From the NCBI GenBank assembly GCA_016930235.1, contig JAFGHI010000041.1:1-35583 (forward strand): a stretch of 35,583 nucleotides of DNA. Direction: 5' to 3'. The stretch's first letter is position 1. Every line of letters starts with the position of its first letter. Of this stretch, positions 4,592-25,575 are shown one piece after another. Both the position numbers and the translations under genes were made by a program. The notes beneath the pieces were generated by a model that was not told where the DNA came from, searched no databases, and worked only from the letters and a program-made list of their open reading frames with translations. Source of the stretch: Candidatus Omnitrophota bacterium. GTDB lineage: Bacteria > Omnitrophota > Omnitrophia > Omnitrophales > Aquincolibacteriaceae.

Positions 4592-7500
4592 GTGCTTTCC
4601 AATTATTGGACGAAGAAATTCGTCGCGTGTCTGATTCTAACCACTTTCTTTTTTACGAATGCGATAGACCCATCGTATGCCTTGACGCCGTGGAAAGAGA
4701 ATCCATTTCTCTCCAAAGCGAATCTCAGTTTCGAAATCCCCTTTGATCTCGGTGAGGTCACAGAAAGAATTCCCGTTGTTTCATCCCGCGGAGTGATCGT
4801 CCATATCCAAACGGCACACGGGCATGAAGAGGCTCAGCTCAACATTGAGAAGATCCTCGGGAAGCTTCAGGAAGAATCCCGCATCAGCCATCTCTTCCTC
4901 GAAGGCGCAGCCAATCAACTCCAACCGGAAATCTTCAGAATTTTTCCCGAAGACCCTGAGCTCAATAAAAAGATCGGGGAAACCTTGGTCGCGGATGGAG
5001 AGTTAACGGGCCCAGAACTTTTCTTGCTTCAAGACAGCCAAAAAGCGAAAGCGTGGGGAATTGAGGACAAGAATTCCTACCGGAGAAACTGGCTGGCTTT
5101 TAAAGAGGTCCTGGAAGGAGAAGATTCAGCGAACGCATTTCTTGCGTCGCTCATGATTGAATGGGAAAAAGAGGCAGCCAAGATCTTCTCCGATAAGCTG
5201 AGAAAATTTCTTGAAGAGGAGGGGAAGTATGAAGAGGAGAAAATTCCCCTTGCCTCATGGCTTACCTGTTTAAAAGAAAAGGCCTTTGAACATCTCAAAG
5301 TTGATTTGGGCAGTTTTTGGTTTCAGGACAAATGGCCCCTTTTGGTTCGATATTTCAGGCTGCAAGCTATTGTCGATCTCCTTGACAGTGAGGCCACTCA
5401 AGAAGAGAAAAAACAATTCCTGGCTGTCTTGAATGACCTGCCTCTGAAAGAAGAACTGATCCAGGAAGTACGAAAAGCGCTCAATCCCGAAGAGAATAAA
5501 TCCCTTAAGACATCGCTCCGAAATCTCCTGGAAAGGCTTTTTGAAGTCCTCCCGGAGGATTTTTCCTTCAGCCGATATCCTGCCCTAAAATTAGATCTTC
5601 AGTACCGTATTTTGATGGAAGAACTCCAGGGCGAAAAATTGATGGAAGAAGTCGAGCGTTTAAGCCACCAGATCATGGAATCCCTTACCGAGTCCGCAGA
5701 AGAAAAAGAGTTATTAGGACTTTTTTATGACCAACACTTACTCAAGAAATTATTCCGTTTGGAATTGTCTCGTCAGGAGTATGCGGAAGTACAAACGAAG
5801 CGAGAAAGCTTAAAACCGTCTTCTTTTCAAAAGAGGATGGGGAAGGCTGATCATTCGCCTTCCGTTGCAGGGGACGGGGGTTTGGTCCACCAGACAGATC
5901 CCACTGCCGGCCTCCGTTCCTTGCATCCTGACAGACTTTTCGAACAAGCGATGGAGTTTTACGAAATCGCGGTCGGGCGCGAAGAGGCGATGATCCAAAA
6001 CACGCTGAAAAAAATGGAAGAGGAGCACACGAAAAAAGGTGTTCTTATCACCGGCGGATTTCATACCGAAGGCCTTAAAAAGAAAATCCTGGAGAGCGGC
6101 TACTCTTATCTTGAGATTATGCCGCGTATTCGGACCTTCACAAAAGACGCGCGTGAGATCTATATCCGCTCCATGATCGGCGAAAGAGCGAAAAAAAATT
6201 CCCCCTCACCCAAGCCTCTCCCCCTCGAAGGGGGAGAGGATAAAGGTGAGGGCGTAGCCTCATCTGAGGTGGAAAGTAGTGTTCTGGAACCCGCAAAACG
6301 ATTGGATCCTGCATTCTTCATAGGGACATCCGATGCTGCACTCATTCAAAGCGCTACAGAAAAAATGAGGGGAGCCATCGAACGAACCATTGCTTATCAC
6401 CGTCCTGGAAGGCGAGAAGCATTGGTATCCCAGTTTAGGGGGTCAACTTTTGCGAAAACTTATTTGGCGGATTCAGAAGCTGGAAGAATGAAATCGGAAG
6501 TTGGAAACTGGAAGCTGGAAGCCTTGCCTGCCGGCAGGCGGGCTGGAAAAAGCTTTTTTTCTGTAGCATCTAGTTTCCCGCGTCTAGCTTCTTCAGACAA
6601 AGAGAACCCCCGGGCCGAGCTACGTATTTCTGACAATAAACCCCGGCGGTCCGGGAAGCAAGCTCCGGACGCTGCAATGGATCGGAAGGTGGAGGAGTTT
6701 TTTGACGGTTTTCAGGGCTGGTTTGAAAATCAATACGGTCGTTATGGCGAGGAGCTTTATGAATATTTGATCAAGTCACTTACGGACCGAAACCGGTCCT
6801 ATCGGGAGGTCATGAGTTTGGGGGTTGTTGATGAAGCAAGAGTGCCCCCAATCGCCCGCCTTATCGCTTCCGGGTATTGGCTTTACCTTCAGCTTACGCT
6901 GGAATTTGCCAGGTTAAGCCAGGAGTTTCAAAGCCAAGGAGAAAATGCCATTATCGAAGAATTCCACGGTCAAATTCAGGATAGGGCATTTATCCATAGT
7001 TTGGTGGACAAAGCTTTTAAAGATAAACCCGGGGATGCATGGGATAAGTTACTTTTCGAGGCAGATCTAAATTTCCACCTTAGCAGCATCGAAAGAATTA
7101 TTTGGATGACGAGCGAAGAACAATCCGGGATTTCTTTTGAGGAGCTTTTTGCCCGGCTCAATATCGTCTACTTTTATTTTATGCGCTTAAACGAGATTAT
7201 GGGGGGTTATGCTTTAAGCCAAGGGATGCCGGTTGTCCGCGCTTTCGATGCCGCCCTGGCGCGCTACGAAGACAAGCACTACCCGCGCTCGGAGTTGCGG
7301 ATATCAAGGAATGGTGATAAAGGAGCGCGTGAGCTGGGTGCCGGGATGAGTCAAAGGATTGAGAAATTATTTGCCCTCTTACGGCTCAGAGCAAAGAAGG
7401 CACATCCGCAGTATGGAGAAGTCTTTTTCAATGAGGTGATGACAGTGATTGCGGGAAGAAACCAAGCTGATCGAATAGCCTTGAGTCAAAGCCCTGTGAT

Positions 7501-10500
7501 CCAAAGTACCCAAACGATTTTACCCAAGAGTCTTTTCAATATCGCCGCACCGTATTATCTTTACCCCCAGGCCCTGAATGTGTTGAAGGCCTTGGCTCAA
7601 GAACTTCAGGGAGAGAAAGATGCCGTCATCCTTCAAAGGTTTTCGGAGCATATGAAAAGCGACGCATTTTTCAAAAATGTTGCAGATGCGTTTCTGAGCA
7701 AAGATATCGGGGCCCGCTTAGATCCTACGGAACAGGCTCTTTTTATGAGTAATTTGAGCGCTCATATTGTTTACCTTACTAATGAGATTGCGGAAGCGGA
7801 CTCGTCCAACATGACAGTTGATCGGCTCCAAGCATGGTGCGACATCAATCTTTTTTATTACCTAGATGTCTACCTGAGTATGCTGCGCTTTCTTAGGGGA
7901 GACGATGACTCCGTCTTCGATGCCTTTGAGGCTGCTCTCATGCGTTACGAGGAGGCACATTATCTGCGGTCCGGTTCTCCGGCATTGGCTGGTCAAGATC
8001 GGGATCTTCAACCCGAAGCAACTTCAGTGGATCAAAGGGTTGAACATCTTCTCGGACTGTTCAGAGAACAGGTTTTAAAGAGGTATAGTCAGTACGGGCC
8101 TGAGTTTTATGATGCAGTCATGAGAGCCATTTCATCCAGAAACCGTCTTTTTCGGGAGACAATGGATCAGTCGCCCGCAGGGTTGCCGAAGAATCATCTT
8201 TTTGCTGTAGCCGGATTTTTCGTGTACGCCCAACTTATCGTGAGACTTAAAGCTTTAAGGACCGAACGGAAAGGAAAGGACGATACTAAAATTTTAGATG
8301 AGTTTTTAAAACAGATATCTGAGCCTGCATTGATGCAAAATATTCTAGAGGAAGCTTTGAAAGCGCTAAACTTTCTGGAAGATCCTTTGACCGTGGGCAT
8401 ATTTACAGCCAACGCCGAAACGCATCTTGCTCATATGGAACTGGAAATCGAGAAATCTGATTGGCCTTTAACAACTCTTGAACGTTTAGAGGCTTGGTGG
8501 GACGTCAATCATAACTATTATGCGAATATTGCCATGAACATGCGGCGATATATCGAGGCGGGAGATATACCAACCGTCCGTGATTTCGATGCCGCCCTGG
8601 CGCGCTACGAAGACAAGCACTACCCGCGCTCCGAGCTTCGGCCGGAATCCCGTGATTCCGGCATTCCGCTCGAAACTGGTCGTTCCGAGCTGCGCGCAAG
8701 CAACAAGGAGAAGGTAACAGCCTTTCTTGCTAAAACCGATCAATTTCGTCCGCGGGCGGAAGCAAGCCTTAAAAAAATAACGTCTGCCAGAATGGAAAAG
8801 GATGATCGCGAAGTATTGCGAATGGTTTGGGCCCAAATCTCTGTTGCCTTTAATTTACTCATGCAAAAACTTGATCATTCCGAAGTGAAATTGGCCATTC
8901 AGGATGTGATTGGTAATGCGTTGGTGGGGATTAGTAGGCTTTTAGAGCGTAAATCAGGCCGTCATGTCAACGCTATCTTACTGGAAGCGTTTCAAGTCTT
9001 GTTGACCCAGCTGGAAAACCTCAAAGTGCTTGTTGATCGGGGATTGCTCGAAGACATTGAACGCTATCACCCGAGTAGCGAAGGATTTGATCTCTCCACT
9101 GATATGGCAGAAGCAGAAACATCCCGTTCAGAATTTCGGGCTTTCTTGGAAGCCTCGGGGATTGTGGCCGCCGCTTCTTTTATCTTCGTGAAATATTTTT
9201 CGGCGATGCCCTTTTTACTATTCTTCCCTGTAAGTTTAGTGATCGGCCATTTAGCCTCCAGCCGTATTGACCAAGATAAGGATTACCGGCGGTATGTTTA
9301 CGCAGCGCTTTCGGGGATTATCCCGGCGATTGCCATTCCCTGGTATGTTCCGATGATTAAATTGATTCCCGATGCCTCGCTGACCTCTTATTGGTTTAAA
9401 CCCTATCTGGACTTATTTCTTTTTGCCTCCGTCATGAATCTTTCGGTTTTTGTTGTGATGGGATTCCGCGATATGGCAAGGGATCAAGGGGAGAAATTTA
9501 TCCGTTATCTCGGAAGAGTGGCCGCTGTGAAAGCAAAACAGATTTTTGAACGGGGCGGATTTTTTAAGATCTTTATCCTTTTTCAAATGCCCATTGCGAC
9601 TTTTAACTACGCTATTGCCACTTCGTTTGATCAGATTAAGACAATCATTATTGTGGCAGGCATGGTTTATTCGGTCCCCATGGCCTTTTTTGCCGTCAAA
9701 AAACCGGATGGTAAGTCCGGAAAACAAACTCTAGCCGATAAAGTCCTGGGGCATTCTTATCTCATTAGTATTTTCGCAACTGTCGGATGGCTTACCGCAG
9801 CCTTTGCGACCAAAAACCATACCGCACAAATTCATGCCGAAGCTCTTTTGGCTACCACCCTTGGGGCTTATGTCATCGTCAAAGGGGTTTATTCCCTCCG
9901 GTCTTTGGTTTCTGGTTCAAGCACCGTTGGCGAAGTAGGCCGCTCGGAGCTTAGATTGCCGCCCATGGATACGGCAAAGCGGCGCGAAGATGCGCTTGTG
10001 ATCTTGGCGGAATTAAAGGCCGCGGACCAAACGACGACCGTTGGGAAATTAGCCGAGACGATCAAGGCGCGTTTCCCGGAGCGGTATCAGGATTATCCCG
10101 TCGGCCAGATTGCGGACCGTCTTAAGGGTGACCGGAAAAATGACAGGCGGTTTGATGCTTACAAAGATGTTTTCGTTAAAAGGGCCGGGCGGGAAGAAAT
10201 ACCCGCAATGCAAAAGTTCCGCGAGCGGGTCCAGAAATTAATAGGCCTGGATCCGGATATCTTAAGGTCCTTTACGGCCTTTTTTGAGGCATGGGGGTCA
10301 AAGGGCGGAGAGGTTTTCTCCCTTGCGGCCGAGTTGCTCGATCAAATAGACCAACGTATCCAAAATGTCCCGGAGGATTGGCGGATGAATGTCAAGTTGG
10401 TCGAATTAGCGGATGAGATGATCCTCGCCGCGACCTTGAACCAACGGCAAAAAAAGGAAGATAAAAGGGTGTTCCGCCTCGATGAGCGTTTAGAGAGGCT

Positions 10501-10840: not shown

Positions 10841-10863
10841 CTTCTGTGGGCGAAGAACGCCTC
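10748..10863. repeat. Linker repeat at the junction of the two giant ORFs
   Basis: GAAGCTGGAAG on the left and TCTAGCTTC on the right flank an extra palindrome, CCTGCCCG...CGGGCAGG (10768-10791). RSELR boxes lie on both sides (10733 and 10864), but in different frames. The matching element at 22381-22479 lacks the extra palindrome and keeps one frame throughout. Confidence 0.85.
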
Positions 10864-13800
10864 CGCTCCGAACTCAGAGAAGAACCGGAGTCTGTCGCCG
10901 CTATCACGCCGGACAAAATAAAACCTACCGAGTTTATACAGGAGATACAAGCAAAAATTCGGGCGGGGAATTCTCAAATATTTGATGCGATCGAAGCGGG
11001 GCAATTTGAGGAAGCCGCCGGACTCATCGACGGAGAATCCGCGCCTGCTTTTAAAATTACCGCCTTGAGTTATCTGGCCTTAGCCGAAGCCGTGAAAGAT
11101 GATGTGGACAGCTCTTTCCGGCATCTGGCCTTGGCCGAACGCTTGATCGATCGTCTTTACGGGAAAGCTCAAGGTACCCCCGAATTCGAGGAGCCGGTCA
11201 GATATTTCTATGGGCTGGTGGTGAAGATCTTTGAGAATGTCATGAATAAAACGGGTGTCCCGCCGGATCCTAGTCGTCCTGAAATTCCCGTAAATCCCAA
11301 GAGCGATACGGGGGCGCTTTTCAAGCTGCTTTTAGGTAAACTCCAGGGGATTGAAGACCTTTATGTCGGAAAAGGAAGAAACTTTCTCCGCATGAAAGAT
11401 GTCAGATCAACGAATATTTATAAAGATCGGTTGTGGAAATATGAAAGAGAGAAAAGCGGAAAACAAGCCGCCAAAGAGGTTACGAAACGTGATTTGCCGC
11501 CAACGCCTCAGAGGCAGACCGTTCAGTCAGCAGTGCCGGATCGATCAAAAACCTCTGAACAGGCTCCGTTACCTCGGCAAAGAGTTCGGGCGGATTCTAT
11601 GCCGGGGCCTCAAATTGGAATCCAAAGGGTAAATCCGAATCCTCCTTATGAGGCCGTATCAAGAGAAGTCTATCGGCCGCTCGCAAAACCTTTCCCCCAG
11701 GATCTTCTCGATTCTCCGGTCAGGGCAATCTCGCTTGATAGCGATGCTCACAAGGACAATAGCACCGCGGCCTTAAAAGGGGCCGTGGTACTTCTGATCG
11801 ATTTTTTGGCGTTTCAAAAAGCTTTGGGACCGCACGCGAGTCAGAAAATTACCCAAGCTTATATTAACCGGTTGCAGACTTTCCTGAGCATTCCGACGAT
11901 CCGGGCGGTCGTTATCTATAATGCCGTTAATCCGATGTCCTTGCTGATGAGGAAGTTCATTCTGCAGCGAGGAAATCCGCCCCCACTGGTTGCTGTCGTT
12001 CAAAGATTGAATATGCCTTCCAGGTCTGCGGTCAACCTGAAAGATGCGCTTTTTGACGTGGTCATCCATGAGGAAGGCGAAGGGGTGTCCGTTTATTTTG
12101 AGGCTGCCAAGTTTCCCGGGGCCAGGAAATCAGCGGAAGACCAAAGATTTGCCGATGCCGTCCGAAAATTGGACCCCAAAAAAATCGAAGATGTCCGGGT
12201 CCTTCGCGCTCTCCAGGCTTCCTTGGAATTGATCAACGGAGAGATCGACGATCCCGAAGAATTAACGCCGGTTTCTCTCGATGCGGCAAGGGCCGTGGGG
12301 ATGAGCGAAGAAGCGATGCGCGAACCCGGGACCCGAAACCGTAATCTCATCGATCATTTATTCAATATCGGGAGCGATCAAGGGCTTCAGAAGGCCTTGT
12401 GTGCATTGTGGGATCAAAAAGAAGCGGCTGCCTTGCGATTGTCCGGGATGGTGGCCCGTCATGCGACAGTAGATTCCGGCGATATTCCAAGTTATCTTGC
12501 CTGGCAGGGGGATGCCCTTGTTTTGGCCCCCGGATATCTGGAGGTGGTCGAGTCCTTACAAGAGGAAATAGAAAGGGATATCGCCCCGGATGCCCGGACG
12601 ATCGACCGTCTTTTAAAGCAAAATGCCGACGGCAAGAGAAAGTATGTTGCGGATCCTGTTCAAGAGATGAGAAAGAGCGCGATTGACAATGTCGGAATCC
12701 TGGTCCGCTGGGCCCAGTGGAAGAATCATTTGCCTGAGAATTTGGCGCCGGATTATCCGGAGCGTGTCAAATCGCTTCAAGCTGTCCGGGAGGCAAGGGT
12801 CCGGGCGGCTCTTGTCAACTCGCTGGCGGGCCGGGGTTTGATTTGGGAAGAATTGGTATTGGCCGCTACGAGTTCGGATAAGGAAAATCCGGCGCTTCTC
12901 CAAAAACTCCTTGAAGGGGTTTTGAGCGAAATCCAGCTGCCGGAAGACTACCGGCCCAAGATTTCCCGAATTGCCAATGATCTTACGAACTTCATGAAGA
13001 AAAAAGGCAAAGACATCCGTACGCGTGAAGATTTGGCGCGCGGGATGAAGAGTCATGGAGGTTTGAAACCTTTTCTTGATCAAGCGGCGTGGATCGACCG
13101 GTTCAGCGAACAGTTTTCGTTTCAGAAGAAAGTTAAAAAAGCAGCGCCAGAGCCTGCGCAACCTGCTCAGGTTAAAGAAGAATCTCTATTGCCTGTTCCA
13201 TCGCCGACGTCATCCGAGCGCTATTTTATCTTAAGCGGTCATTTCTACAATGATAACGATTATCGTGATGGCCTGATTCCCGCGCTTGATGAGGTTATCC
13301 AAGAAGCTCAGGCAGGAGGTGAATCTCCCAAAATCCTGATCGAAGCCTATCCGACGATCCCAGATGTTCATTCCACGATAATTCTTGAGATTTTAAAAAA
13401 ATACGGCGAAGGGGCACTGGACCCATGGCTTGCTCGCAATGGTTATCGATTGACAAATCGGGAAAAAAATACCTTGGTGGCTTTCTCAAGAGAGTGGGAA
13501 CGTCACTATAAAAAAGGTGGGGCACAGTTCATTCTATTTTTAGAGAGCAAGGGACCTTTGGTCCGGGAAGGTTTTGAACTGCTGTTCCATATGATGAATG
13601 TTAATCTTAATATGATGTCGCGCACGATGCCGCCTGGCCAGAAAAGGTCGATGTATACGGCCGAATTCTGGGATTTATTGGACCGTTATCATGTCGCTCA
13701 TCAATTTTTTGTTTCTTCGGGTGAATTTGTTCGCTTTTATTTTTTAAGGGACTTTTGCACTCAAGAGATTTTTCGAGCGGTTATCGGCGGCGGTGATCAA

Positions 13801-16800: not shown

Positions 16801-19800
16801 GAAGAGGGCCGCTATCTTTTTAAATGGGTGTATCTCCCAGCTTCGGGAGATCGTCATAAAACACTCACCTTAAAAGAGGCATTCAGCCGATTTCAAAAAC
16901 AAGGTTTTACCGGAGATTACAAAGCTTTTCTTGAGTTGGTTCGCGGGCTTCCTGAAAAAATTTATGCTGTTCTTCAGGGGGATGTTGTCCAAGAGGTCCA
17001 ACCGGTCAGGGAGGAAGTTCAAATTTCTGTCAATCAAGTTCCCGCTAAAGAGGAGCCCCCAGCCGTTAAAACACCGGATTCACCGTTTGAGGTGTTCCTT
17101 GGAACGATTCCGCGGACGCAATATTACGGCATTCAGCTGGCACGGCTTCTTCGGGAGATGCATGAGGCTGTGGGGGAAAAGGACAGGGAGAAATTTGAAT
17201 TGGCTGTCAGAGCTTATAAAGCTTACTTTCATGATGTCCGTGAAAAAAATAAACACGGACACATGAGTCTTGAGATAGCCAATGCTTACGAATATGCCGG
17301 GGTTTGGATTGCGGAATTTGAGCAAACCTTCGGGGGGCGTTCCGAGCTAAGGACGCTTACGGATTCCGGGGTTGAAGGAAACGGGTCACGACATGTGGGC
17401 TTAATCAATGAACTGACTGCAGATCCCTTCCCGCCGGAATTACAGGGCGTTTCCGTGAAGGCAGTCAGCGTTGATAATTCTCTCTATAGCGGTAACAAAA
17501 CTGCCGGTCTTCAGGATGCTGTGGTTGTATTTTTGGATTATCAAGTGTGGCAAAAGTCTATGTCGGGAGCGAAAAATAGGGGCAATGCAAATAAGGGTCA
17601 CGATAAAAGTTATCTTGAAAGGATTCTGACTTATTTATCCGTTCCGACAGTGAGGGCTCTTGTCGTTACGAATGCTACCGGAGGAGAACCGGGTATTCTA
17701 AGACGTTTTTATGGAAGACCTTCTTTAATTGCCGTATTTCCAGGGCTTGAAATCAATCAAAGGGATTTGGCCTTTCAGGTATCGCTTCGTGTGGAGGGAG
17801 GAAAGGCTATCCTTGATCTGAATCCAAAAGGGAATCAGGTTCCTGCTCAGTCCTTTGGGCCGACCGCCCAAAGGGCCGAAGCTCGGGATCACGGGAGCTC
17901 CGAATTGCGGGGTACGGAAGCTTCTTTGAGCGAAGAACGCCGTCGTTCCGAGCTGCGGCCGGAATCCCGTGATTCCGGCACTCCGTTCAGAACTGGACGT
18001 TCCGAACTTCGGATGGCGTGGCGGCCGACGAGGCGGGCGGTCTACGGATTTACCGCTGCCGGTCTTTTATTCTTCGCCGGACTCTGGGTATCAGGTAGAA
18101 ACGGTCGTTTGGAGGAAGAAGCCAAACTCCGGGTTGTTGATTTGCGGTCGGTCTGGCGCGGGAAGAAAATCCGCTGGATTGACCGCACCAAATCGAAAGT
18201 TTTGGATCATGATGCCGAAATTACCCAGGCCATTGACAGTGTTTTAACGGCCTTGGAACGGCTGCCGAGCCAGGCGGCAAGGAGGCGGCTGGATCAAATA
18301 GCCGGATTTGAATTGACAGACGGCGGGCGGACCGGGGAAAACGTTTCTACGGTCGTTATTAAAATTTATCCGAATGAAGGGCTGGGTGATATTTCCCCGG
18401 AATTTGAGACCCATAAGATCCGGCTGGATGATTCCAAGACGGATGATTTGGCCGTTTTACAAAGCAATGTTTACGGGGAGGATTTCGGCGATGTTGTAAG
18501 GTCGAGGATGCGCTTAAAGTCGTTGAAATATTCCTTGGTCGGGACCGTTATCCTGGCCTTGGGCGGTTTTGTCGTGTTAGGCGGTTTGATTTCTTTTTTC
18601 AGGAGTTGGTCCGATAACCTTCGCGAGAATGTCGATGAGCGCCGCAGGAGAAAAGCAGAGAAATTATTTGAAGGCAGCCCCGAAGCAAAAAATCGGAGGA
18701 CACGGATTTATCTGGAGGATCGTGAGCAACGTCAGCGCCGGAGGGATGCTGAGGATCACTGGCGCTCGGAATTACGGCCGGAATCCCGTGATTCCGGCAC
18801 TCCGTTCGGAACTGGACGTTCCGAACTGCGGGAGGAGGGAGGTATCGAAAGTACGATCGCGGAGCTTTTAAAAGAGGGTTATGACGATAAAGCTTTGGGG
18901 CATTATCGGGAATTTATCGAAAACGCTATGGAGCATCTCGGGGATATTGATTACAAAAGAGATTTGGAGGGTTTTCATGAGATTTTGGTGGCAGTAAAAA
19001 AAGTGTTCCTCGTTGATATCCAGCAAATCATTCGACGCGAAAAAAATCCAAGAACGAGACAGGAACAACTTCGGCCTTACCAGGCCTTTTCAAGGGCATA
19101 TACCGAAGAAACCCTGCGGTATATGAAGGCATGGCCGGGTGAATATTATGAGTCTGAGATCGTACAGAAGGAGTTTGCGATACCGATGAGTGAATGGGCC
19201 CAAATCCTGAGGTATCTGGATCTCTATGATGAAACAATTGAATTGCTCGAATTTTTTGTCAGCAGGATGAAATGGCAGGGCAACCGGTATTTTGAATATC
19301 ATCTTTTGAGCGCTTATTCCAGCAAAGCAACGGCCTATTACCGAAATCAACAAATCAAGGAAAGCCGCGCGGCCCACAGAAAAGCAGTGCTGCATTTTGC
19401 CCGGTGGGTGAAAACAGTCGGGTTCGACAACCCTGATAATGAAAAAACCTTCAAGTCTTTAATGACTTCGGTGACAGAAGTTTCAAAAGAAGTGAGAGAT
19501 CCCACTTCCAGTGGGCAACCCTTTGCTGAAGCCATCCATGAGCTCAAAGAGGTTTTTCTTGAGATTGTCCCGGTCCAAGGGAAGACAGCATCGCCTGAGT
19601 TGATCGATTCTATCGGCACTATGATTAACGCCATGGGCAAATTCTGGATTGATTTGGGCAAGATTGATGAGGCGGAATCTTTTGTCAACGCGATGGCAAA
19701 ACATTTAATTCCGACGGCATACACGCTCCAGCTTTTGGCTCGAATTGCTGTTGCCAGAAAAAACTGGGACTTAGCCTGGGGACTTGTGGACAGTATTCGA

Positions 19801-22800
19801 GGCACCTTTCCCAATTTTGAGGTGGGATTGGTGATTGCCATGGTTCGGGATGAAATGCAAGCGGCAAAAGGAACTATGCCGCGTTGGCCGGACCTCGGGT
19901 TAGGAGAAACCTTTGCCAAAACGACTATGGCAAAACTTAGTGAATTAGAACAGGAAAGGACCGGACAAAGGCCTTCAAAAAGCCCCTCGCCCAAGCAGCA
20001 GATAGAGCTGATTATAAGGGATATGAGGGATCTTAATGAGCGGATAAGCAAGAAGACTATTGACGATGCTAGGGCCCAGCAGGAATTGGAAAAGTTATCG
20101 AAGGTCATAGAACGCTCGGACATTCCTGATGAGGAAAAAACCGAGCTTGCGGAAATCCTTTGGGGCTTGACATGGATGGAGCAGGATGAGATTTCAAACC
20201 GCCTGAAAGCCGTCGAGGGCAGGCGTTCGGAATTGCGTGAAGGCGGTTTGGATCGTCGGATTTTCGAGCTCCTTTTGGAGGCCAAGACTGACGAGCGTAA
20301 GCGCTGGCAGGCCCTGGAGCTCTTCGAGGAATTTTTAAAAGGAGCACAAACCCGGCTGGCGGTGCGGGCTCGGGAAGACCGGATCAAGGAGGACTTTGGG
20401 ATTTTCTGGAGGAGTTTTCGGCATTTGGTGGATAACGTGGATAGCCGGATCGGCGCGGTTATCCGGCAAAAGATTAGGGATAAATATACCCGTGAACGGC
20501 TCATCGAACCTCACCGCCCCTTTGCTCGAAGACTTACGCGGGCGGCCCGGGCCTACATGGCGAATTGGCGGCCGGAGGATTTTAATGTCGAAGACAGGAG
20601 TGTTCTGAGTTCGATCAATTATCTCGGGATGACCCTGCGTGTTTCGGATCTGGACCACGAATGGGTCGATTTCTTTAAATCGGTTCCGAGGGATACTACT
20701 ATCGGACAGGACGGGCGGTTTCATTTTCATAATCTTAAGGCTTATCAGACTGTGACGAATGCTTTATATCAGGAAGGTAAGCAGTTCCGGTGGAGCAATG
20801 ACAAAGTAAAGCTTGGGCAGCTGGAACGCGAAAAACGGTTGGCCCGTTCCGAGGCGGTCTGGAGTTTCGTGATCTGGGTGCGCGAAACAAAGCTTTCAAA
20901 ACCGGAAGCGAAAGTAATAATGCTGACGGCTTCCTGGGTCAAGGATGTGGTGAGCTTGGCGCATGATCAGGAGCCTCAGGTTCGGGAAGATGCCGTACAC
21001 ACTTTAGAGGAATTAAGCCGGATATTCGAAAACGTTGTTCCGCGGGTGGAGCCCCGGTCCCTCACGGACGAAATGTGGGGCGCAATCGGATCCATTTATT
21101 CGAGCCTTGCCTTATATTGGTCGGACAAAGAAGAATACGGCAAGGCCAAACAGTTGACCCATATTTCCATGGGGCTGCCTGTCCCTAGGATCTATGCCTT
21201 GAGGAATTTGGCGCGGATTGCCGCTAAAGAGGGGAATTTTGATCAAGCCGAAAATTATATCCGGGAAATCGAGAAATTGGATGCCTCCTTTGCCTTGGGG
21301 GTGAAGGTAATGATGGTCCGGATCAAGATACGCCGTTTGCAGGAGGCCGGGTTTTCGGATAGATCAAAGGACACGGATCTCGAAGCGCTCGTCCGGAAAT
21401 ACCGGATATTTGTCGATGAAGCGGTTTCAACAGAAGATGAAACGCTCTGGGAAAAGAGCCTTGGGCCCTTTCGGGATTTTCTTATCAAGGTAACGATGCC
21501 CTTTGAGGATCTCTTCTGGGATATTTGGGAGAGCGAAGGGGACGAGGAACTGGATGGTAAGGGTATCCAATCACTTGGGCCGTATGCCGAGGAGGTTGCC
21601 CGGGCGACTCAAAAGTACCTTGAAGCTTTGCCGCATTCCGTGATCCGCGAGGAAACCGATATTATGGAGTTGATCGTTTTGATCGGGGACATGGCGCGGG
21701 GACTTCGCTTTCTTGGGATGACTTGGTCCGCTTCGCCCATCGTCAAGGTTTTTATGCATAAAGCGGGACTTAGAAGAACGCAGATTCTCCAAGTCGAACT
21801 GTTTAAGATTTATTATTCGGTTGCAAGTCGTCTTTATAAAGAAGGCCGCGTGCGGGAATCTTTTCCTGTCAGGATTGAAGCGGCCGAACATTTTGCCGCG
21901 TGGCTCCCGGCAGCCGAGCTTAAGAGAGAGAACAAAATGGTTTTCCGGGAGGCCGGTTTTATCATCAGCGATGTTGCCGGTTCTACGAGAAGAGGACAGG
22001 TGGAATATCAACAGAAGGCCAAGCAGGTCCTTGGCGAAATAGCGTCGGGGATCCGCGGGATCGTTCTTAAAAGGCAAAACCCGGTGCCCGTTGATTATGC
22101 CAATCTTTTTGAAATGATCCTGGATAAGATTGCGCAGGCTTGGATTGAGCTGGGAGAGTTGGATCGGGCAGAGGACTTAAGCCGGTTTGTTTTGGAACTT
22201 CCGATCTTAAAAAAGGGATATGCATTTCACAATTTGGCTTTGATTGCGGCCCATCGGGGGGATTTTGAAGGGGCAGAACAAATCATCGCCCGCGGTAAAA
22301 AGGAAGACCCAAAATTTGATTGGTCGAGGACCGAGGGGGCTGTCTCTCAGATTCAGCTGGGCGGACGTTCCGAACTGCGGGGTACTGAAGTTGGAAACTG
22401 GAGGCTGGAGGCTAGAAAGGAAATGCTTTTCCCAGCATCCAGCGTCAAGCCTCTAGCTTCTTTGAGCGAAGAACACTGGCGTTCCGAGCTGCGCGAGACG
22501 GTTGATGCTGGAACTCAATCGATGCTTGAGCAAATTAGGCAGGGGACTTATCCGGCATGGCTTTCAAGGCTGCCGGCCGGTGTTGCTCCCCATATTAGAG
22601 AGCGTTTGTTTGAGCTTTTTAATATTCCTGAACGGTATAAAACCTATAATTTATGGTCCCTCGGGCACTATCACGGTCCGAACGGAATGGGAGCTTATTA
22701 TCATGAAAATCCGCTGACCAATCGCTATTTGGATCTTGAAGGTGAGTTGGGTATTCTCCGGGATTGGTTTTCGGGATGGCCTGAAATGTATCAAACAACT

Positions 22801-25575
22801 CCGATCATGGCCGAAGGGGAAAATAAGCCTTCTCACTGGGGGTACTTGTTTGCAATTCGTTATGGGCAGATATTGGATTATTTTGCCCATTATCGTCGAT
22901 TGATTGAAGCCGGTGTTTTAGAACCCCAAAAAGTCGGGCGCGTTCTGGAATTGGCTTCGGGTAATTGGTGTTACGCACCGATCTACCCTCGTCTCTTCCC
23001 CAATTTTCAAAAGGCGTTTGCTATTGACCACAATATCGGTGGAAAACGTGTTTTTGATAAGAGGTATCGACAGGTATTCGGTTTAGATCCCGAAAAATTT
23101 GTGATGCATCCTTATGATGATGGATCGATCCGGATACTTGAGGTCGATGAAAAACTTCAAGCTTTTGTTCACGAGAATGGAAAATTTGATCTTGTGTCAC
23201 TCCAGACATTCTTACCCGAACAATTTCCCCCGGGCCCTGGAACACAGTCGGATGTCTATGGGCAAAGGTACGAAGCGGAGGATCATTACAAACTTCTCGT
23301 GAATATCAGCCGTCTGCTAACACCTGAAGGAAAGTTGGTTATTTCATTTAAAGGTTGGGATGCTCACGGAAGTTATTCAGTTCAATTTTTATGGGAAATC
23401 CTAAAGAAGATTTCCCATGAATCTTTTACCGACTGGCGTGTTGATCAAGCGCCTTTTGGTTCCATTGGTGCCGGAGAACAGCTGATCTTTGTCCTTTCGC
23501 AGCCGGAACTTGCCAAGGTAGAGGATCTTTTTTGGCAGTATGCGGAAGAAATGAGAGAGAAAGGGGAGCGTTCGCATACGATCGATGCTTATGAGAGGTT
23601 ACTGGAGCTGCATCCTGAGAGAACGGATCTTTATTTCTATTTGGGAGAGGCCTACACTCAGATAAAGAGCAATGATCCGTATTATGTCGGGAATGCACTG
23701 ATGTATCTTCTCGCCTATCTTGAAAGAGATAGTGAACAAAAATTTGCTGCGCAGGTGCGTCAAAACTTAAGAGAAATTGTCGAGAATCGTGAAACGGCCG
23801 GCCTTGATGGTTATCATCGGAATTGGATTGAGGAGCATCGTCGAATGGGTCAAATGGAGCAATATCAAAAATATCGCCGGCAAGAAAGAAAAGCATTGCA
23901 TTGGTCACTGCGCTTCGATCCGACTCGTAAGTCGCACCGGCTGAGATTAGCTCACCATTATTGGAAAGCAGGCAAGCACTGGCTGGCCACACAAACGGCA
24001 TTGGATCGTATCACTTATCGTCCCGTGACCGATGAAGAAGTTATGAATTATATCAACAATTATCTCGCCGAGCATGGAAGACGGCAATCGATCCTTATTC
24101 CAGAGAGATTAACGGGTGATGCCTTGCCCGTAAAACAGGCTAAGCGTGCCGAACTGCGCGAGACAGAGGCTGTTCTTTATCCTGATTTTGTTTACCCCGA
24201 GCCGCCGGTATTTTTTGTCACAAGCCGGATGATCGGGGATAAGGATATCTATGGCCGCCATTTGAATTCTGAGGAGATTCAAAAAATTCTCCGGTCCGAA
24301 GCATTTAAGGGGCTTTCCGATGCGGAGCGAAATCTTTTTCAGCGCATCGCTGGATTTACGCAAGGCGTTGTGATCGTGAATCAGAATATCCTCAAGCAAC
24401 CGGATCTTTTAAGGAAAACCCTAAGGCATGATTTCTTCCATGATGGCATTGCCTCGAATCTTGAAATGAAAGCAGTTTTGGGGCGCATTTTTGAAGCTTG
24501 GAAAGCAAAGCGTCACAATTTGGAGCAAGCTCTAAGCGAAATTTTTCCTATTTATCGGAACTTTTGGTTTTATGCGGCAAGCGAAGTTAAAGGCGGGGAA
24601 GTTTTCTCCCAGATATTCGAACCTTCACCTTCAGCCAGCCGGCATTGGATTCAACCGAAATGGGAAGCTTTGAAAGCAGAATTGATAGAGTTGGTTGCAG
24701 GAGAAGATGCCGATTCTGAATTTCGTTCAGCTTGGGAATTCGCTCAAGGGGTGCGTGAAAGAGCTATTCAGCAAGCTGAAAAAGTGATGGCGCTCATTCA
24801 AGTCGGGGATAACGGGAAAGTGAGCGTGAGGCCTTATCGAAGACCCGGTGACTACTGGCGCTCGGAATTACGAATAGCAGAAGCTGGAAGCTTGAGGCTG
24901 GATGCTGGAGAAAATATGCCTTTCCCAGCTTCTAGCTTCCCGCTACCAGCTTCAGCGTTACCTGAATACGCCGAGGCGCATTCGGTTTCATCGGAGAGTG
25001 TTTTAAAAGTTGTGGTGGATGTGATGGATGGGGTACTGCCTCTCTCGATTAGTCAGTTGGCGGGGTCCCTTCTTGTCCGATTCTTTGGGGAGCCTGAAGT
25101 GATCGATCCTCATAAGGATGTGGAAGCGGCAAGAAGAATCGTGGCACATGTTGACACGAAACATCTTGGCGCTTTTGTCTTGGGACGGGATTTTGCCCTC
25201 CAAAAGGGCGGGCTTGAAGCGATCCTGAAACTCCATCCTCACATTCCCATCGCTGTCCTGGTGGATGATGATGAGCTTGTGGCCATGCTCGAAAAGGATT
25301 ACCCGGATGTCCTGGCGGTTCGAAATGTTTGGGAAGCTCAATCCTCACTGCGCGAGCGGATGCGATTGGCTGATGATTCGGCGACTCGAAATAAGATTGC
25401 GGGTGTGGCGAGTTCCGATGAACTTGATGTCGCTGAACTTCTCCAACAGGTTGTCGATGATGTCACCGTGATGACGGCCGTGATGTTTGAAAAGTTCCGC
25501 ACCTTTGTCGGCGAGCAGATCGCTCACCTCATGAGCGAACTTGAGAGCCGCATCCAAATCGCACAATCCGCGTAA
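10807..25575 (+). CDS. Giant RSELR polyprotein, C-terminal ORF (4922 codons)
   Basis: The frame is open from 10717; the first ATG is at 10807, with GGGAGG (10790-10795) 11 bases before it, and it overlaps the preceding ORF by 34 bases. There is no signal peptide of its own. Order: domain A1 (10920-11490), domain B1 (11641-12110), a large unrecognised helical region (12110-14570), A2 (14780-15400), B2 (15850-16320), a helical region (16440-17330), B3 (17385-17840), a two-helix membrane domain (18013-18762), three solenoid blocks (18832-22365), a methyltransferase-like domain plus TPR (22495-24140), a zincin-like domain (24160-24858) and a terminal alpha/beta domain (24955-25575). Pro/Gln/Lys-rich linkers lie near 11500-11640, 13140-13200, 16320-16450 and 17000-17080. 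Sixteen RSELR-type boxes mark the borders. Missing a leader, it only makes sense as the continuation of the upstream ORF or as a translationally coupled partner. Function is unknown. Confidence 0.87.
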   Translation: MLFPASSIKPLASVGEERLRSELREEPESVAAITPDKIKPTEFIQEIQAKIRAGNSQIFDAIEAGQFEEAAGLIDGESAPAFKITALSYLALAEAVKDDVDSSFRHLALAERLIDRLYGKAQGTPEFEEPVRYFYGLVVKIFENVMNKTGVPPDPSRPEIPVNPKSDTGALFKLLLGKLQGIEDLYVGKGRNFLRMKDVRSTNIYKDRLWKYEREKSGKQAAKEVTKRDLPPTPQRQTVQSAVPDRSKTSEQAPLPRQRVRADSMPGPQIGIQRVNPNPPYEAVSREVYRPLAKPFPQDLLDSPVRAISLDSDAHKDNSTAALKGAVVLLIDFLAFQKALGPHASQKITQAYINRLQTFLSIPTIRAVVIYNAVNPMSLLMRKFILQRGNPPPLVAVVQRLNMPSRSAVNLKDALFDVVIHEEGEGVSVYFEAAKFPGARKSAEDQRFADAVRKLDPKKIEDVRVLRALQASLELINGEIDDPEELTPVSLDAARAVGMSEEAMREPGTRNRNLIDHLFNIGSDQGLQKALCALWDQKEAAALRLSGMVARHATVDSGDIPSYLAWQGDALVLAPGYLEVVESLQEEIERDIAPDARTIDRLLKQNADGKRKYVADPVQEMRKSAIDNVGILVRWAQWKNHLPENLAPDYPERVKSLQAVREARVRAALVNSLAGRGLIWEELVLAATSSDKENPALLQKLLEGVLSEIQLPEDYRPKISRIANDLTNFMKKKGKDIRTREDLARGMKSHGGLKPFLDQAAWIDRFSEQFSFQKKVKKAAPEPAQPAQVKEESLLPVPSPTSSERYFILSGHFYNDNDYRDGLIPALDEVIQEAQAGGESPKILIEAYPTIPDVHSTIILEILKKYGEGALDPWLARNGYRLTNREKNTLVAFSREWERHYKKGGAQFILFLESKGPLVREGFELLFHMMNVNLNMMSRTMPPGQKRSMYTAEFWDLLDRYHVAHQFFVSSGEFVRFYFLRDFCTQEIFRAVIGGGDQQFEYATGIARKIVEAQKEYIKSGGQFYGVARALGEALSTKSIIALMSSPPTDYHWGFLEGGQSVALYRADIPTLDFADDAAQKSLKGEAFSENDLRQISARQVLFEIMWESFRRRYTTLSARTAKILLRRVLSGENFETGLPGEFSGIEEDDVRAVLGVIASQYPDIKAKVTAAVDRRIEDQLRDGSLQEPDVKNNRAFLFNVFVRDAILDIVLACMEVNGRWPEDVIQLLRGDRDPPDLALGSRLIRQDLTGQTRPDYLKVRAPQKTANAKTSRTPAGRKKRKRSELRENKLQASGRMLQKQDLEPAAGSLKLGDRSELREQSAAENSVPLTRFMTGFRDRVSIFSPEILRQIETGKWVDAGAALRTEVAQASGELMEGVILAYAYLAVHYAHAGEFSSASNTLHNAKVLFNENFGGGQRFADMTVEYLFGAHVKVYEIIRDQVGMHPQKGNGFISINGYSEAQALQILEPVIRDGVEINKNFGKEVIPDVDWRKENVRFRTRRRDSQQFKVYAGKFREWKRQYLFKHHREKILGLGSFRDFKDFVSGSRVILGEDYYTKEYYQDMQAVLEGILGADFQAIQLNRQAARQLFPALKTRLNENLIGIGAFRRVGQLEYKLHRFLLEIDRIDPETGELRSELRESRLQASSYRLQEEILRPAASSLKPDNRSELRDEASPMAQGLGAYPANLWVTGDIHQSSDNPFPKELQGVPIKAITLDNPHHEGNKTAHLQGAAVLFVNYREWNRMMTRHKSVNAKRTAQDRRYFDRLNAFSSIPSLRALIFTDAEWVAASEAARHYPKFPLIASFRRLFANRDDLMFEISLQVQNGEVILNLDPKGQQGGQTAKTADQSAPLQTKEIVPPQTGPRQAGGIHQPIPAVVPVIEDAVIPAELDFVPTKLLELIFGSPLVNAQTGRSLFDGSRQAVLHRDIAEMHFIQKKSLQEMTDYLRQHDKRYQDKPDDKVYASLNAMLNTMRKELGEDPDISALAEKMLRAAEKLSEEGRYLFKWVYLPASGDRHKTLTLKEAFSRFQKQGFTGDYKAFLELVRGLPEKIYAVLQGDVVQEVQPVREEVQISVNQVPAKEEPPAVKTPDSPFEVFLGTIPRTQYYGIQLARLLREMHEAVGEKDREKFELAVRAYKAYFHDVREKNKHGHMSLEIANAYEYAGVWIAEFEQTFGGRSELRTLTDSGVEGNGSRHVGLINELTADPFPPELQGVSVKAVSVDNSLYSGNKTAGLQDAVVVFLDYQVWQKSMSGAKNRGNANKGHDKSYLERILTYLSVPTVRALVVTNATGGEPGILRRFYGRPSLIAVFPGLEINQRDLAFQVSLRVEGGKAILDLNPKGNQVPAQSFGPTAQRAEARDHGSSELRGTEASLSEERRRSELRPESRDSGTPFRTGRSELRMAWRPTRRAVYGFTAAGLLFFAGLWVSGRNGRLEEEAKLRVVDLRSVWRGKKIRWIDRTKSKVLDHDAEITQAIDSVLTALERLPSQAARRRLDQIAGFELTDGGRTGENVSTVVIKIYPNEGLGDISPEFETHKIRLDDSKTDDLAVLQSNVYGEDFGDVVRSRMRLKSLKYSLVGTVILALGGFVVLGGLISFFRSWSDNLRENVDERRRRKAEKLFEGSPEAKNRRTRIYLEDREQRQRRRDAEDHWRSELRPESRDSGTPFGTGRSELREEGGIESTIAELLKEGYDDKALGHYREFIENAMEHLGDIDYKRDLEGFHEILVAVKKVFLVDIQQIIRREKNPRTRQEQLRPYQAFSRAYTEETLRYMKAWPGEYYESEIVQKEFAIPMSEWAQILRYLDLYDETIELLEFFVSRMKWQGNRYFEYHLLSAYSSKATAYYRNQQIKESRAAHRKAVLHFARWVKTVGFDNPDNEKTFKSLMTSVTEVSKEVRDPTSSGQPFAEAIHELKEVFLEIVPVQGKTASPELIDSIGTMINAMGKFWIDLGKIDEAESFVNAMAKHLIPTAYTLQLLARIAVARKNWDLAWGLVDSIRGTFPNFEVGLVIAMVRDEMQAAKGTMPRWPDLGLGETFAKTTMAKLSELEQERTGQRPSKSPSPKQQIELIIRDMRDLNERISKKTIDDARAQQELEKLSKVIERSDIPDEEKTELAEILWGLTWMEQDEISNRLKAVEGRRSELREGGLDRRIFELLLEAKTDERKRWQALELFEEFLKGAQTRLAVRAREDRIKEDFGIFWRSFRHLVDNVDSRIGAVIRQKIRDKYTRERLIEPHRPFARRLTRAARAYMANWRPEDFNVEDRSVLSSINYLGMTLRVSDLDHEWVDFFKSVPRDTTIGQDGRFHFHNLKAYQTVTNALYQEGKQFRWSNDKVKLGQLEREKRLARSEAVWSFVIWVRETKLSKPEAKVIMLTASWVKDVVSLAHDQEPQVREDAVHTLEELSRIFENVVPRVEPRSLTDEMWGAIGSIYSSLALYWSDKEEYGKAKQLTHISMGLPVPRIYALRNLARIAAKEGNFDQAENYIREIEKLDASFALGVKVMMVRIKIRRLQEAGFSDRSKDTDLEALVRKYRIFVDEAVSTEDETLWEKSLGPFRDFLIKVTMPFEDLFWDIWESEGDEELDGKGIQSLGPYAEEVARATQKYLEALPHSVIREETDIMELIVLIGDMARGLRFLGMTWSASPIVKVFMHKAGLRRTQILQVELFKIYYSVASRLYKEGRVRESFPVRIEAAEHFAAWLPAAELKRENKMVFREAGFIISDVAGSTRRGQVEYQQKAKQVLGEIASGIRGIVLKRQNPVPVDYANLFEMILDKIAQAWIELGELDRAEDLSRFVLELPILKKGYAFHNLALIAAHRGDFEGAEQIIARGKKEDPKFDWSRTEGAVSQIQLGGRSELRGTEVGNWRLEARKEMLFPASSVKPLASLSEEHWRSELRETVDAGTQSMLEQIRQGTYPAWLSRLPAGVAPHIRERLFELFNIPERYKTYNLWSLGHYHGPNGMGAYYHENPLTNRYLDLEGELGILRDWFSGWPEMYQTTPIMAEGENKPSHWGYLFAIRYGQILDYFAHYRRLIEAGVLEPQKVGRVLELASGNWCYAPIYPRLFPNFQKAFAIDHNIGGKRVFDKRYRQVFGLDPEKFVMHPYDDGSIRILEVDEKLQAFVHENGKFDLVSLQTFLPEQFPPGPGTQSDVYGQRYEAEDHYKLLVNISRLLTPEGKLVISFKGWDAHGSYSVQFLWEILKKISHESFTDWRVDQAPFGSIGAGEQLIFVLSQPELAKVEDLFWQYAEEMREKGERSHTIDAYERLLELHPERTDLYFYLGEAYTQIKSNDPYYVGNALMYLLAYLERDSEQKFAAQVRQNLREIVENRETAGLDGYHRNWIEEHRRMGQMEQYQKYRRQERKALHWSLRFDPTRKSHRLRLAHHYWKAGKHWLATQTALDRITYRPVTDEEVMNYINNYLAEHGRRQSILIPERLTGDALPVKQAKRAELRETEAVLYPDFVYPEPPVFFVTSRMIGDKDIYGRHLNSEEIQKILRSEAFKGLSDAERNLFQRIAGFTQGVVIVNQNILKQPDLLRKTLRHDFFHDGIASNLEMKAVLGRIFEAWKAKRHNLEQALSEIFPIYRNFWFYAASEVKGGEVFSQIFEPSPSASRHWIQPKWEALKAELIELVAGEDADSEFRSAWEFAQGVRERAIQQAEKVMALIQVGDNGKVSVRPYRRPGDYWRSELRIAEAGSLRLDAGENMPFPASSFPLPASALPEYAEAHSVSSESVLKVVVDVMDGVLPLSISQLAGSLLVRFFGEPEVIDPHKDVEAARRIVAHVDTKHLGAFVLGRDFALQKGGLEAILKLHPHIPIAVLVDDDELVAMLEKDYPDVLAVRNVWEAQSSLRERMRLADDSATRNKIAGVASSDELDVAELLQQVVDDVTVMTAVMFEKFRTFVGEQIAHLMSELESRIQIAQSA
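10920..11490 (+). other. Domain A, copy 1
   Basis: Helical, TPR-like domain: an I.AGQFEEAAGLI helix, then an LSYLALAEAV helix, an FRHLALAERLIDRLYG helix and a YFYGLVVKIFENV helix. The same order is seen in copy 2, followed in both by a basic helix. Confidence 0.6.
11641..12110 (+). other. Domain B, copy 1
   Basis: An alpha/beta domain of about 155 residues. Its shared pattern is PFPxxL...P(V)(R/K)A(I/V), then N.TA.L.(G/D)A.V.(F/L), then L..(F/Y).S(I/V)P(T/S).RA. It has no recognised family. Copies follow at 15850 and 17385. Confidence 0.72.
14668..14748. repeat. GCAGC/CAGGC linker repeat between two RSELR boxes, copy 1
   Basis: It lies between RSELR at 14653 and 14749. The words CAGGCCTCAGGCCGC and GCTGCAAAAA resemble the intergenic repeats at 2031-2097 and 35526-35570. 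It is translated as a low-complexity linker (LQASGRMLQ...AAGSLKLG). Confidence 0.8.
14780..15400 (+). other. Domain A, copy 2
   Basis: It follows an RSELR-linker-RSELR cassette. Helices match copy 1 in order (IETGKWVDAGAAL, LAYAYLAVHYAHAGE, VEYLFGAHVKVYEII), but identity is low. A basic helix follows, as in copy 1. Confidence 0.6.
15727..15807. repeat. GCAGC/CAGGC linker repeat between two RSELR boxes, copy 2
   Basis: It lies between RSELR at 15712 and 15808 and has the same 81-base length as the cassette at 14668-14748, with a similar peptide (LQASSYRLQ...AASSLKP). Words GCTGCAAGCTTCAAGC and GCCTGCAGCC relate it to the intergenic repeats. Confidence 0.8.
15850..16320 (+). other. Domain B, copy 2
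   Basis: It keeps PFPKELQGVPIKAI, NKTAHLQGAAVLFV and SSIPSLRALIF of the shared pattern and ends LNLDPKG, as copy 3 does (LDLNPKG). It starts just after an RSELR box. Confidence 0.75.
17385..17840 (+). other. Domain B, copy 3
   Basis: It keeps PFPPELQGVSVKAV, NKTAGLQDAVVVFL and LSVPTVRALVV, and ends LDLNPKG. It is closer to copy 2 than to copy 1, so the last duplication was probably between copies 2 and 3. Confidence 0.75.
17911..17943. repeat. Short linker remnant between SSELR and RSELR
   Basis: A GGTACGGAAGCTTC start followed directly by a GAGCGAAGAACGCC end looks like the long GGTAC...GAAGAA element with its middle deleted. It is translated GTEASLSEERR. Confidence 0.6.
17958..18012. repeat. 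PESRDSG linker element, copy 2
   Basis: A perfect 9-bp stem (17958-17966/17971-17979, loop CCGT) with a tail ending in RSELR at 17998-18012. From 17956 on it matches copy 3 at all but two positions. Confidence 0.9.
18013..18762 (+). other. Domain with two transmembrane helices
   Basis: Hydrophobic helices near 18037-18090 (AVYGFTAAGLLFFAGLWV) and 18535-18600 (VGTVILALGGFVVLGGLI) bracket about 145 polar residues. A very basic, charged tail follows up to RSELR at 18763. The middle domain was not recognised. Confidence 0.72.
18777..18831. repeat. PESRDSG linker element, copy 3
   Basis: The same stem at 18777-18785/18790-18798. The tail holds CGTTCGGAACTG (18803-18814) and, 14 bases on, CGTTCCGAACTG (18817-18828). 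Only the second is read in frame as RSEL. Confidence 0.9.
18832..20223 (+). other. TPR-like solenoid block, copy 1
   Basis: An all-helical block starting just after RSELR. It shares three signposts with the next two blocks: an ESRAAHRKAVLHFARWV helix, an MGKFWIDLGKIDEAESF helix and an LLARIAVARKNWDLAWGLV helix. The last pair has the length and small/large pattern of TPR helices. It ends with a charged coiled-coil-like stretch before RSELR at 20224. Confidence 0.75.
20239..21345 (+). other. TPR-like solenoid block, copy 2
   Basis: It starts right after RSELR at 20224. Its signposts are RSEAVWSFVIWV, SSLALYWSDKEEYGKAKQL and LRNLARIAAKEGNFDQAENY, in the same order and spacing as in copy 1. Confidence 0.75.
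21346..22365 (+). other. TPR-like solenoid block, copy 3
   Basis: Signposts are PVRIEAAEHFAAWL, IAQAWIELGELDRAEDL and HNLALIAAHRGDFEGAEQII. There is no RSELR box at its start; the border reads SDRSKDTD, which may be a decayed box. It ends at RSELR 22366. Confidence 0.72.
22381..22479. repeat. GAAGCTGG-type linker repeat between two RSELR boxes
   Basis: Repeated (G)AAGTTGGAAACTGG words pair loosely with CCAGCATCCAGCG...CTAGCTTC. It is read in one frame between RSELR at 22366 and 22480, with the peptide MLFPASSVKPLAS that recurs at the ORF junction (10807). Confidence 0.82.
22495..24140 (+). other. Methyltransferase-like domain followed by TPR helices
   Basis: GRVLELASGNW (about residues 4044-4054 of this ORF) fits motif I of class I SAM-dependent methyltransferases, FDLVSLQTFLP fits the motif IV strand, and LLTPEGKLVISFKGWD fits the strand after it. 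An ~140-residue helical region precedes the fold. Then YERLLELHPERTDLYFYLGEAYTQ matches a TPR repeat, and an Arg/His-rich helix ends the segment. The substrate is unknown. Confidence 0.65.
24160..24858 (+). other. Zincin-like domain with HDFFH motif
   Basis: After RAELR (24145) comes an alpha/beta stretch with GVVIVNQNIL, then a helix holding HDFFHDG (24427-24447, His4541 of this ORF). HDxxH is the spacing of the HExxH zinc-peptidase motif with Asp for Glu. A third ligand cannot be placed with confidence. If active, it could be a processing protease for the chain, which is speculative. Confidence 0.4.
24874..24960. repeat. GAAGCTGG-type linker repeat after the last RSELR
   Basis: GAAGCTGGAAGCTTGAGGCTGG on the left pairs with CCAGCTTCTAGCTTC and ACCAGCTTC on the right around an AT-rich loop. 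It follows RSELR at 24859 and has no second box after it. Confidence 0.75.
24955..25575 (+). other. C-terminal alpha/beta domain of the giant protein
   Basis: It has alternating strands and helices (VLKVVVDVMDG, LGAFVLGRDFAL, IPIAVLVDDDELV, DVLAVRNVWEA) reminiscent of a receiver-like or Rossmann-like fold. It then ends in a long charged helix. No catalytic residues were recognised. Confidence 0.45.

Follow-up and report, generated by a model that had tools for sequence, protein, structure and literature searches.

The RSELR box and the giant gene of the window

What does a five-residue word do when it recurs along a giant bacterial protein? The question is raised by the window analysed here, a 35,583-nucleotide stretch of DNA (contig C63 of genome G000, which is 2.31 Mb and 90% complete), in which two consecutive giant ORFs repeat the pentapeptide RSELR. 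A preliminary description of the window had taken the word for a boundary mark kept by selection on the peptide, and suggested a recognition site for a protease, for docking or for sorting. The giant gene and its neighbour are arranged as follows.

4571..10840, + strand: ORF1, 2089 aa, front part of the presumed giant, with a signal-like start, the head domain, 5 RSELR, 1 RAELR and 1 RSEFR
4571..4684, + strand: signal-peptide-like N-terminus with an uncertain start codon, TTG (translation judged by eye)
4583..6196, + strand: conserved head domain (IQ-x-x-H ... LEG ... GGFH; E 1.2e-169 with profile A1, which includes this stretch as one of its rows)
10717..10837, + strand: linker within which the open frame switches from ORF1 to ORF2 (ORF1 without AA/SA tail, ORF2 without head)
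10807..25575, + strand: ORF2, 4922 aa, remainder of the presumed giant, with 14 RSELR, 1 RAELR, 1 SSELR and a Ser-Ala end
25567..25572, + strand: C-terminal Ser-Ala of ORF2 (..QSA)
2101..4209, - strand: stand-alone head-domain copy, 703 aa, without a box and with an Ala-Ala end, divergent neighbour of the giant

As ORF1 has a head and no tail, ORF2 has a tail and no head, and the frame switches within a linker, the two most likely form one giant of ~7,000 aa that the assembly shows in two frames, through an error or a real change. The account of two consecutive giant ORFs therefore stands as far as boxes occur in both frames, but the ORFs look like one split gene. Pfam matches are almost absent from the window giants, and a 1400-aa piece of ORF2 used as query found no homologue in 26 relatives of the same family; the giants are poorly conserved, and the word is shared among them.

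All of the 19 exact and 4 near-exact boxes claimed for the window were found, each in the frame of ORF1 or ORF2. Six-frame search of the window revealed no site encoding RSELR beyond the 19, in agreement with the claim that the word is restricted to the giant ORFs. Composition predicts 0.025 copies in the 7,011 aa of ORF1 and ORF2, the maximum in 200 shuffles of these ORFs was 1, and the reversed word RLESR is absent from the same 7,011 aa. The boxes, all on the + strand, are as follows.

6611..6625, +: near box RAELR
7286..7300, +: RSELR
8627..8641, +: RSELR
8681..8695, +: RSELR
9125..9139, +: near box RSEFR
9941..9955, +: RSELR
10733..10747, +: RSELR
10864..10878, +: RSELR
14653..14667, +: RSELR
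14749..14763, +: RSELR
15712..15726, +: RSELR
15808..15822, +: RSELR
17338..17352, +: RSELR
17896..17910, +: near box SSELR
17944..17958, +: RSELR
17998..18012, +: RSELR, with Met directly after it and a hydrophobic segment shortly downstream
18763..18777, +: RSELR
18817..18831, +: RSELR
20224..20238, +: RSELR
22366..22380, +: RSELR
22480..22494, +: RSELR
24145..24159, +: near box RAELR
24859..24873, +: RSELR

A box pair of the form box-PESRDSG(I/T)P(L/F)xTG-box is copied three times in the window (8627-8695, 17944-18012 and 18763-18831), and the linkers of such pairs differ in other G000 giants (for example RSEQRQVA...QARSELR).

The frame change that splits the window giant could suggest an artefact or decaying pseudogenes. 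This has a negligible probability and is refuted by open frames such as those of 12,257 aa (genome G014) and 12,255 aa (G000). Their heads and tails are conserved, and active-site motifs are retained in the two enzymes examined (described below).

The box is conserved as a peptide throughout the genome

In G000 the degenerate DNA pattern CGYTCSGARYTNMG matches at 106 sites compared with 3 for the reversed pattern. All 106, on both strands, are in the box frame (103 encoding RSELR and 3 encoding RSEFR) within stop-to-stop frames of at least 849 aa, and there are no matches between genes or in other frames. Among the pentapeptides of 38 long G000 frames (103,372 aa), RSELR ranks first, with 136 copies written in 99 different 15-base spellings; the next non-overlapping pentapeptides are RAELR (26), RSEQR (19) and RSELH (14). 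Joining neighbouring stretches gives 140 copies over the frames of at least 800 aa (122,409 aa in all) and none in the 742 frames of 150-799 aa from the same stretches (222,235 aa, many of these frames not being real genes). Twenty ORFs of G000, some of them incomplete, carry the word, the longest being the 12,255-aa frame.

Leu4 and Arg5 of the G000 boxes each use all six codons at roughly background-like frequencies, with CTG (26% vs 15%) and CGG (35% vs 25%) slightly raised, and this scatter identifies the peptide as the conserved entity. The box word of other families, [A/G]-x-S-L-G (see below), has 37 spellings in 37 boxes, with Ser encoded by TCN in 18 and by AGY in 19. The earlier claim of selection on the peptide is thus borne out by spelling and frame alike. 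The claim of full synonymous scatter, however, is valid for Leu4 and Arg5 and fails at the first two positions, as Arg1 is CGY and Ser2 is TCC or TCG in 19/19 window boxes. Throughout the G000 boxes CGY accounts for 86% of Arg1 (36% in the background) and TCC/TCG for 85% of Ser2 (40% in the background), and the bias is present in all six genomes examined (CGY 71-86%, TCC/TCG 60-85%), with the CGY preference seen at Arg1 and absent at Arg5. The near-absence of AGY at Ser2 can stem from descent under peptide constraint, because the path from TCN to AGY passes through a non-Ser step. A protease does not account for the codon bias at Arg1 and Ser2. The box core YTCSGAR, as read from the pattern, is a DNA palindrome.

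This bias, together with copied linkers such as the pair present three times in the window, would suit a DNA-level element, in which the boxes are the remains of a mobile or recombining repeat that aids domain shuffling and are seen in frame since other insertions were lost. An interspersed DNA repeat would be conserved as DNA and occur in several frames or between genes, whereas 0/106 matches fall in another frame or beyond long ORFs, Leu4 and Arg5 are fully scattered, and no two [A/G]-x-S-L-G boxes share a spelling, both Ser codon families being used. The frame and spelling counts largely refute a DNA element, which we consider quite improbable. Rickettsia palindromic elements are in-frame coding repeats; the box resembles them as a repeated sequence in frame inside genes, but differs in that the peptide rather than the DNA is conserved and that there are no matches outside long frames.

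Architecture and content of the giants

A signal-peptide-like start is present, as judged by eye, in most box giants with a visible 5′ end. In the own family it is usually followed by a head domain of ~500 aa, which BLAST to stand-alone copies detects in 35 of the 37 own-family box giants with a 5′ end, the exceptions being one giant of G012 (contig C73) and window ORF2. Among the 13 G031 box giants with a 5′ end, 2 have the head and 11 are without it by BLAST. Profile search places the head domain in 47/47 genomes of the same order and 143/285 of the phylum, and it is also present in one giant of G048, from another order. Stand-alone copies adjoin giants in the window (2101-4209), in G014 (C7:10180) and in G012 (C73:18978).

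Alignments of 14 (A1) and 21 (A2) head members share an invariant Gln-x-x-His, one Glu and Gly-Gly-x-His. Members of the Tiki/ChaN/EreA superfamily have conserved His/Glu/His with G-x-x-H type motifs, and the head may resemble them in its invariant His, Glu and GG-x-H; its Pfam scores to ChaN and EreA are weak and do not reach family-profile significance. ChaN was matched by 2/14 (best E 0.0076) and 3/21 members (best E 0.0093), and EreA by 1/14 and 2/21; the window member scored 13.2 bits against ChaN, below the Pfam cut-off of 27.7, and DUF1722, an unrelated family, outscored both in 2/14 members (best E 7.1e-5, and 0.17 in the second search, with 21 members). A PDB search with the head domain gave no match below E 0.03, and single-sequence structure prediction of the stand-alone head protein had a mean pLDDT of 33.7, too low for use.

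At the other end, the C-terminus is AA or SA in 45/57 box giants with a 3′ end compared with 15/573 other non-overlapping ORFs, and in 27/32 head-domain ORFs by motif test. This Ala-Ala/Ser-Ala tail may be a sorting or quality signal of the giants and the stand-alone head proteins. A conserved C-terminal domain was also considered and rejected, as likeness between the giants was seen in the last residues only. Cysteine makes up 0.03-0.11% of the box giants and 0.68-1.14% of other ORFs of the same stretches (G000, G012, G014-G016 and G031); there is no cysteine depletion in the giants read of G030 (1.37%) and G048 (1.15%).

Typically cytosolic enzymes and domains are found inside the G014 and G000 giants, namely UGD, NDK, PTA, PPDK_N, HD with a response regulator, and a MoxR-like AAA domain. 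One 8785-aa G014 ORF combines UGD, PPDK_N and HD/response regulator, and one G000 ORF combines NDK and PIG-L; functionally unrelated proteins are thus joined in one ORF, as in a polyprotein, and many stretches are without a Pfam match. The UDP-glucose dehydrogenase unit of G014 retains GGSCFPKD, with its catalytic Cys, despite the near-absence of cysteine, and the NDK unit of G000 retains HGSDS, both being active-site motifs. In the MoxR-like AAA domain the phosphate-loop region is atypical, so some units may be inactive.

Boxes avoid conserved domains

The boxes had been placed, with few exceptions, at the borders of domains. Of 322,527 residues, 44,309 can be aligned between genomes, and these contain 33 of the 728 boxes of the wider set compared with 96.9 expected, and the 18 Pfam matches (2,614 aa) contain none compared with 5.64 expected. 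Conserved domains are therefore avoided, but the ends of BLAST alignments are no nearer to boxes than random positions (14.3% vs 19.2% within 50 aa), so that the border claim holds only in the sense of avoidance; alignment ends were rejected as border markers, showing no excess near boxes. A box lies within 60 aa on one side of 9/18 Pfam matches, and 70 to several hundred aa away from the others. Among the closest, UGD starts four residues after a box, PEP-utilizers_C starts three after, and NDK stops four before one. Boxes are spaced a median of 338 aa apart, and disorder propensity peaks in the ten residues on either side of the boxes (of 40 per side).

The giants were also compared with 662 stand-alone ORFs of the fetched stretches. 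Besides the three head copies, 9 had partners, most over part of the gene, and this gauge of whole-protein borders was dropped; for one of them (o258) the match begins exactly at a box, and for another (o162) a box lies inside the match.

The word differs between lineages

The wider pattern CGYTCSGARNTNMG was counted against its reversed control in 285 genomes of the phylum. It reached at least three times the control in 25/27 own-family genomes, the exceptions being G009 (14 vs 10) and G023 (12 vs 10), and in part of families f3, f6 and f8 of the same order. In the other genomes it was near the control, and raised in G189 (11 vs 3) and G190 (9 vs 0). For the narrower pattern, 64/72 distinct matches in the loci of relatives are in frame in long ORFs; the remaining 8/72, which are not, include all three loci outside the class.

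Counts in the fetched long frames of each genome showed that RSELR is the word of G000, G014, G015 and G031, making up 132/137 RSExR in G014. G012 and G016 are mixed, with RSEVR first and then RSELR and RSEMR. Elsewhere the words are RSEMR/RSEVR (G004), RAETR/RSETR (G007), RAEVR (3) and RAETR (2) (G021), RAEVR/RSEAR (G028) and RSEAR/RAEVR (G033 and G041). The fetched giants of G039 (family f7) and G038 (f4) contain none of RSELR, RSE[VMI]R and [RKH][SA]ELR, and their strongest word is A-x-S-L-G, with 18 and 9 copies compared with 0.40 and 0.33 expected. G030 (f5) has G-x-S-L-G, 11 compared with 0.15 expected, and such words number only two in G029 and one in G032. The architecture of the giants is alike in lineages with different words. 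The G048 giant with a head domain has no box word in the 3,999 aa read. As to free drift of the box in relatives, by which the preliminary description had proposed to judge its reading, the outcome was a third one: genera differ in their word, whereas several genomes use a single word throughout or almost so, and this combination looks like dialects.

The disorder-prone surroundings of the boxes would also be expected of a structural linker, in which the word serves as a spacer or as the start of a helix, preferred between domains and in need of no partner. A spacer, however, would not keep one exact word per genome, as G014 does, nor give way to an unrelated word, A-x-S-L-G, in further families of this order, and a purely structural role is unlikely.

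Residues following the box are as expected of a cleavage site

The position directly after the box (+1) was compared with expectation in five genomes (G014, G015, G031, G012 and G016). Of 428 boxes, none is followed by Pro (19.4 expected), 6 are followed by Phe, Trp or Tyr (35.8 expected) and 240 by Ser, Thr, Ala or Gly (113.9 expected). Positions -3 to -1 and +3, in contrast, are enriched in Pro. Six further genomes, searched with R[SA]E[VATLM]R, have Pro at +1 in 1/125 (5.8 expected) and Ser, Thr, Ala or Gly in 62 (33.0 expected). In G000 itself Pro at +1 is at chance (6/153, 6.4 expected), with aromatic residues in 1 (13.2 expected) and Ser, Thr, Ala or Gly in 53 (37.8 expected). Pro follows [A/G]-x-S-L-G in 0/37 (1.3 expected), too few to tell. 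The +1 profile is as would be expected of a cut after Arg5, and as in a polyprotein the conserved word is followed by an apparently cleavable bond, except for the missing exclusion of Pro in G000.

Met stands directly after 26/586 boxes, compared with 11.4 expected and with 6 to 12 at 13 other flanking positions, and hydrophobic segments number 24 within 60 aa after boxes and 4 within 60 aa before them, where ~14 would be expected each. Together these suggest that the unit following a box often starts as an independent protein would.

A recognition site, as first proposed, is the best reading of the word, and among protease, docking and sorting options cleavage fits the flanks best. The main rival is docking or escort, in which a receptor, chaperone or translocation partner binds each box and the giant is handled domain by domain and left uncut. 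It would fit peptide-level conservation and linker position equally well, the lineage words would track a co-evolving receptor, and none of the four protease families searched tracks the boxes. That Pro and aromatic residues are so sharply avoided at +1 alone, with Pro enriched two residues on, is nevertheless more like a scissile bond, and Met right after boxes suggests separate units; we regard docking as a possible, tentative alternative.

A proposed processing pathway and candidate proteases

The repeated word is a genuine feature, conserved as protein, specific to lineages and spread over the genome. Our preferred reading, to which we assign a probability of roughly 0.55, is that the giants are exported polyproteins and that the word is the cleavage site at which the chain is cut into units. 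The long chain would comprise a signal peptide, usually a head (in the own family), many formerly separate proteins and the Ala-Ala/Ser-Ala tail, with the short word, in this genome RSELR, in flexible linkers between units. An endoprotease, itself exported, would read the word and cut after the last Arg, releasing each unit with its own N-terminus, and the joint evolution of word and protease would give every lineage a word to itself. Conservation at the peptide level, frame restriction, domain avoidance, lineage words, the shared tail, cysteine loss and a head shared in one family are observed, and export, cleavage, the cut position and a protease are inferred. Against the reading count the chance frequency of Pro at +1 in G000, the 33 boxes within alignable residues, the alignment ends that are no nearer to boxes than random positions, the nine Pfam matches that have no box within 60 aa, and the codon bias at Arg1 and Ser2.

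Four protease families were considered as the processing enzyme and rejected. C11 occurs in 0/58 genomes; the trypsin family occurs in 35/58 but not in G000 or G012, S41 in 28/58 but not in G000, G012 or G014, and S8 in 14/58 but not in G000. Because its His, Glu and His are invariant, the head domain is speculatively proposed as the protease, working either in cis or from the stand-alone copies. In a fuller version, a bacterial order would keep part of its exported proteome as a genome-wide self-processing set of giants, in which the head is the protease, the word its private site and the tail a sorting or quality mark, with typically cytosolic enzymes delivered as Cys-poor units to a compartment outside; this version is doubtful. 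The head is missing by BLAST from 11/13 G031 box giants with a 5′ end, which makes the fuller version less probable, and present in the G048 giant, where the part read has no box word; both also count against the preferred reading.

Relation to known systems

Viral-type polyproteins are single chains with a repeated protease site. The box giants resemble them in the single chain, the short conserved linker word and the small residue, mostly not Pro, that comes next, but differ in coming from a bacterium, where 20 ORFs in a single genome carry the word, and in being apparently exported, with a lineage-variable word and putative protease and products.

Giant ORFs of Omnitrophota have been described, in the parts of the reports consulted, as very long, with few annotated domains, poorly conserved and several per genome (PMC10066038, PMC12057145). 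The box giants share this length, sparsity of domains, poor conservation and number per genome, and the consulted parts of PMC10066038 and PMC12057145 do not mention a boundary word, tail or cysteine loss for them. A literature search, preprints not covered, found no report of a boundary word in giant proteins.

A word that stands between units and is specific to each lineage offers an immediate and testable answer: cut here. If this is true, bacterial chromosomes would join the places that use polyproteins with private cleavage codes, the presence of typically cytosolic enzymes inside giants with a signal-like start would be accounted for, and the giants would be a possible source of new sequence-specific proteases.

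Repeats within the window giant

Two further kinds of repeat were observed in the giant of the window. Residues ~700-1357 of ORF1 comprise some three copies of one domain, two of which end in ...ALARYEDKHYP just before a box. Linkers near 10747-10837, 14667-14749, 15726-15808, 22380-22480 and 24873-24950 contain repeated EAGSxxLEA / FPASSxxPLAS-like strings, which look like copied DNA repeats.
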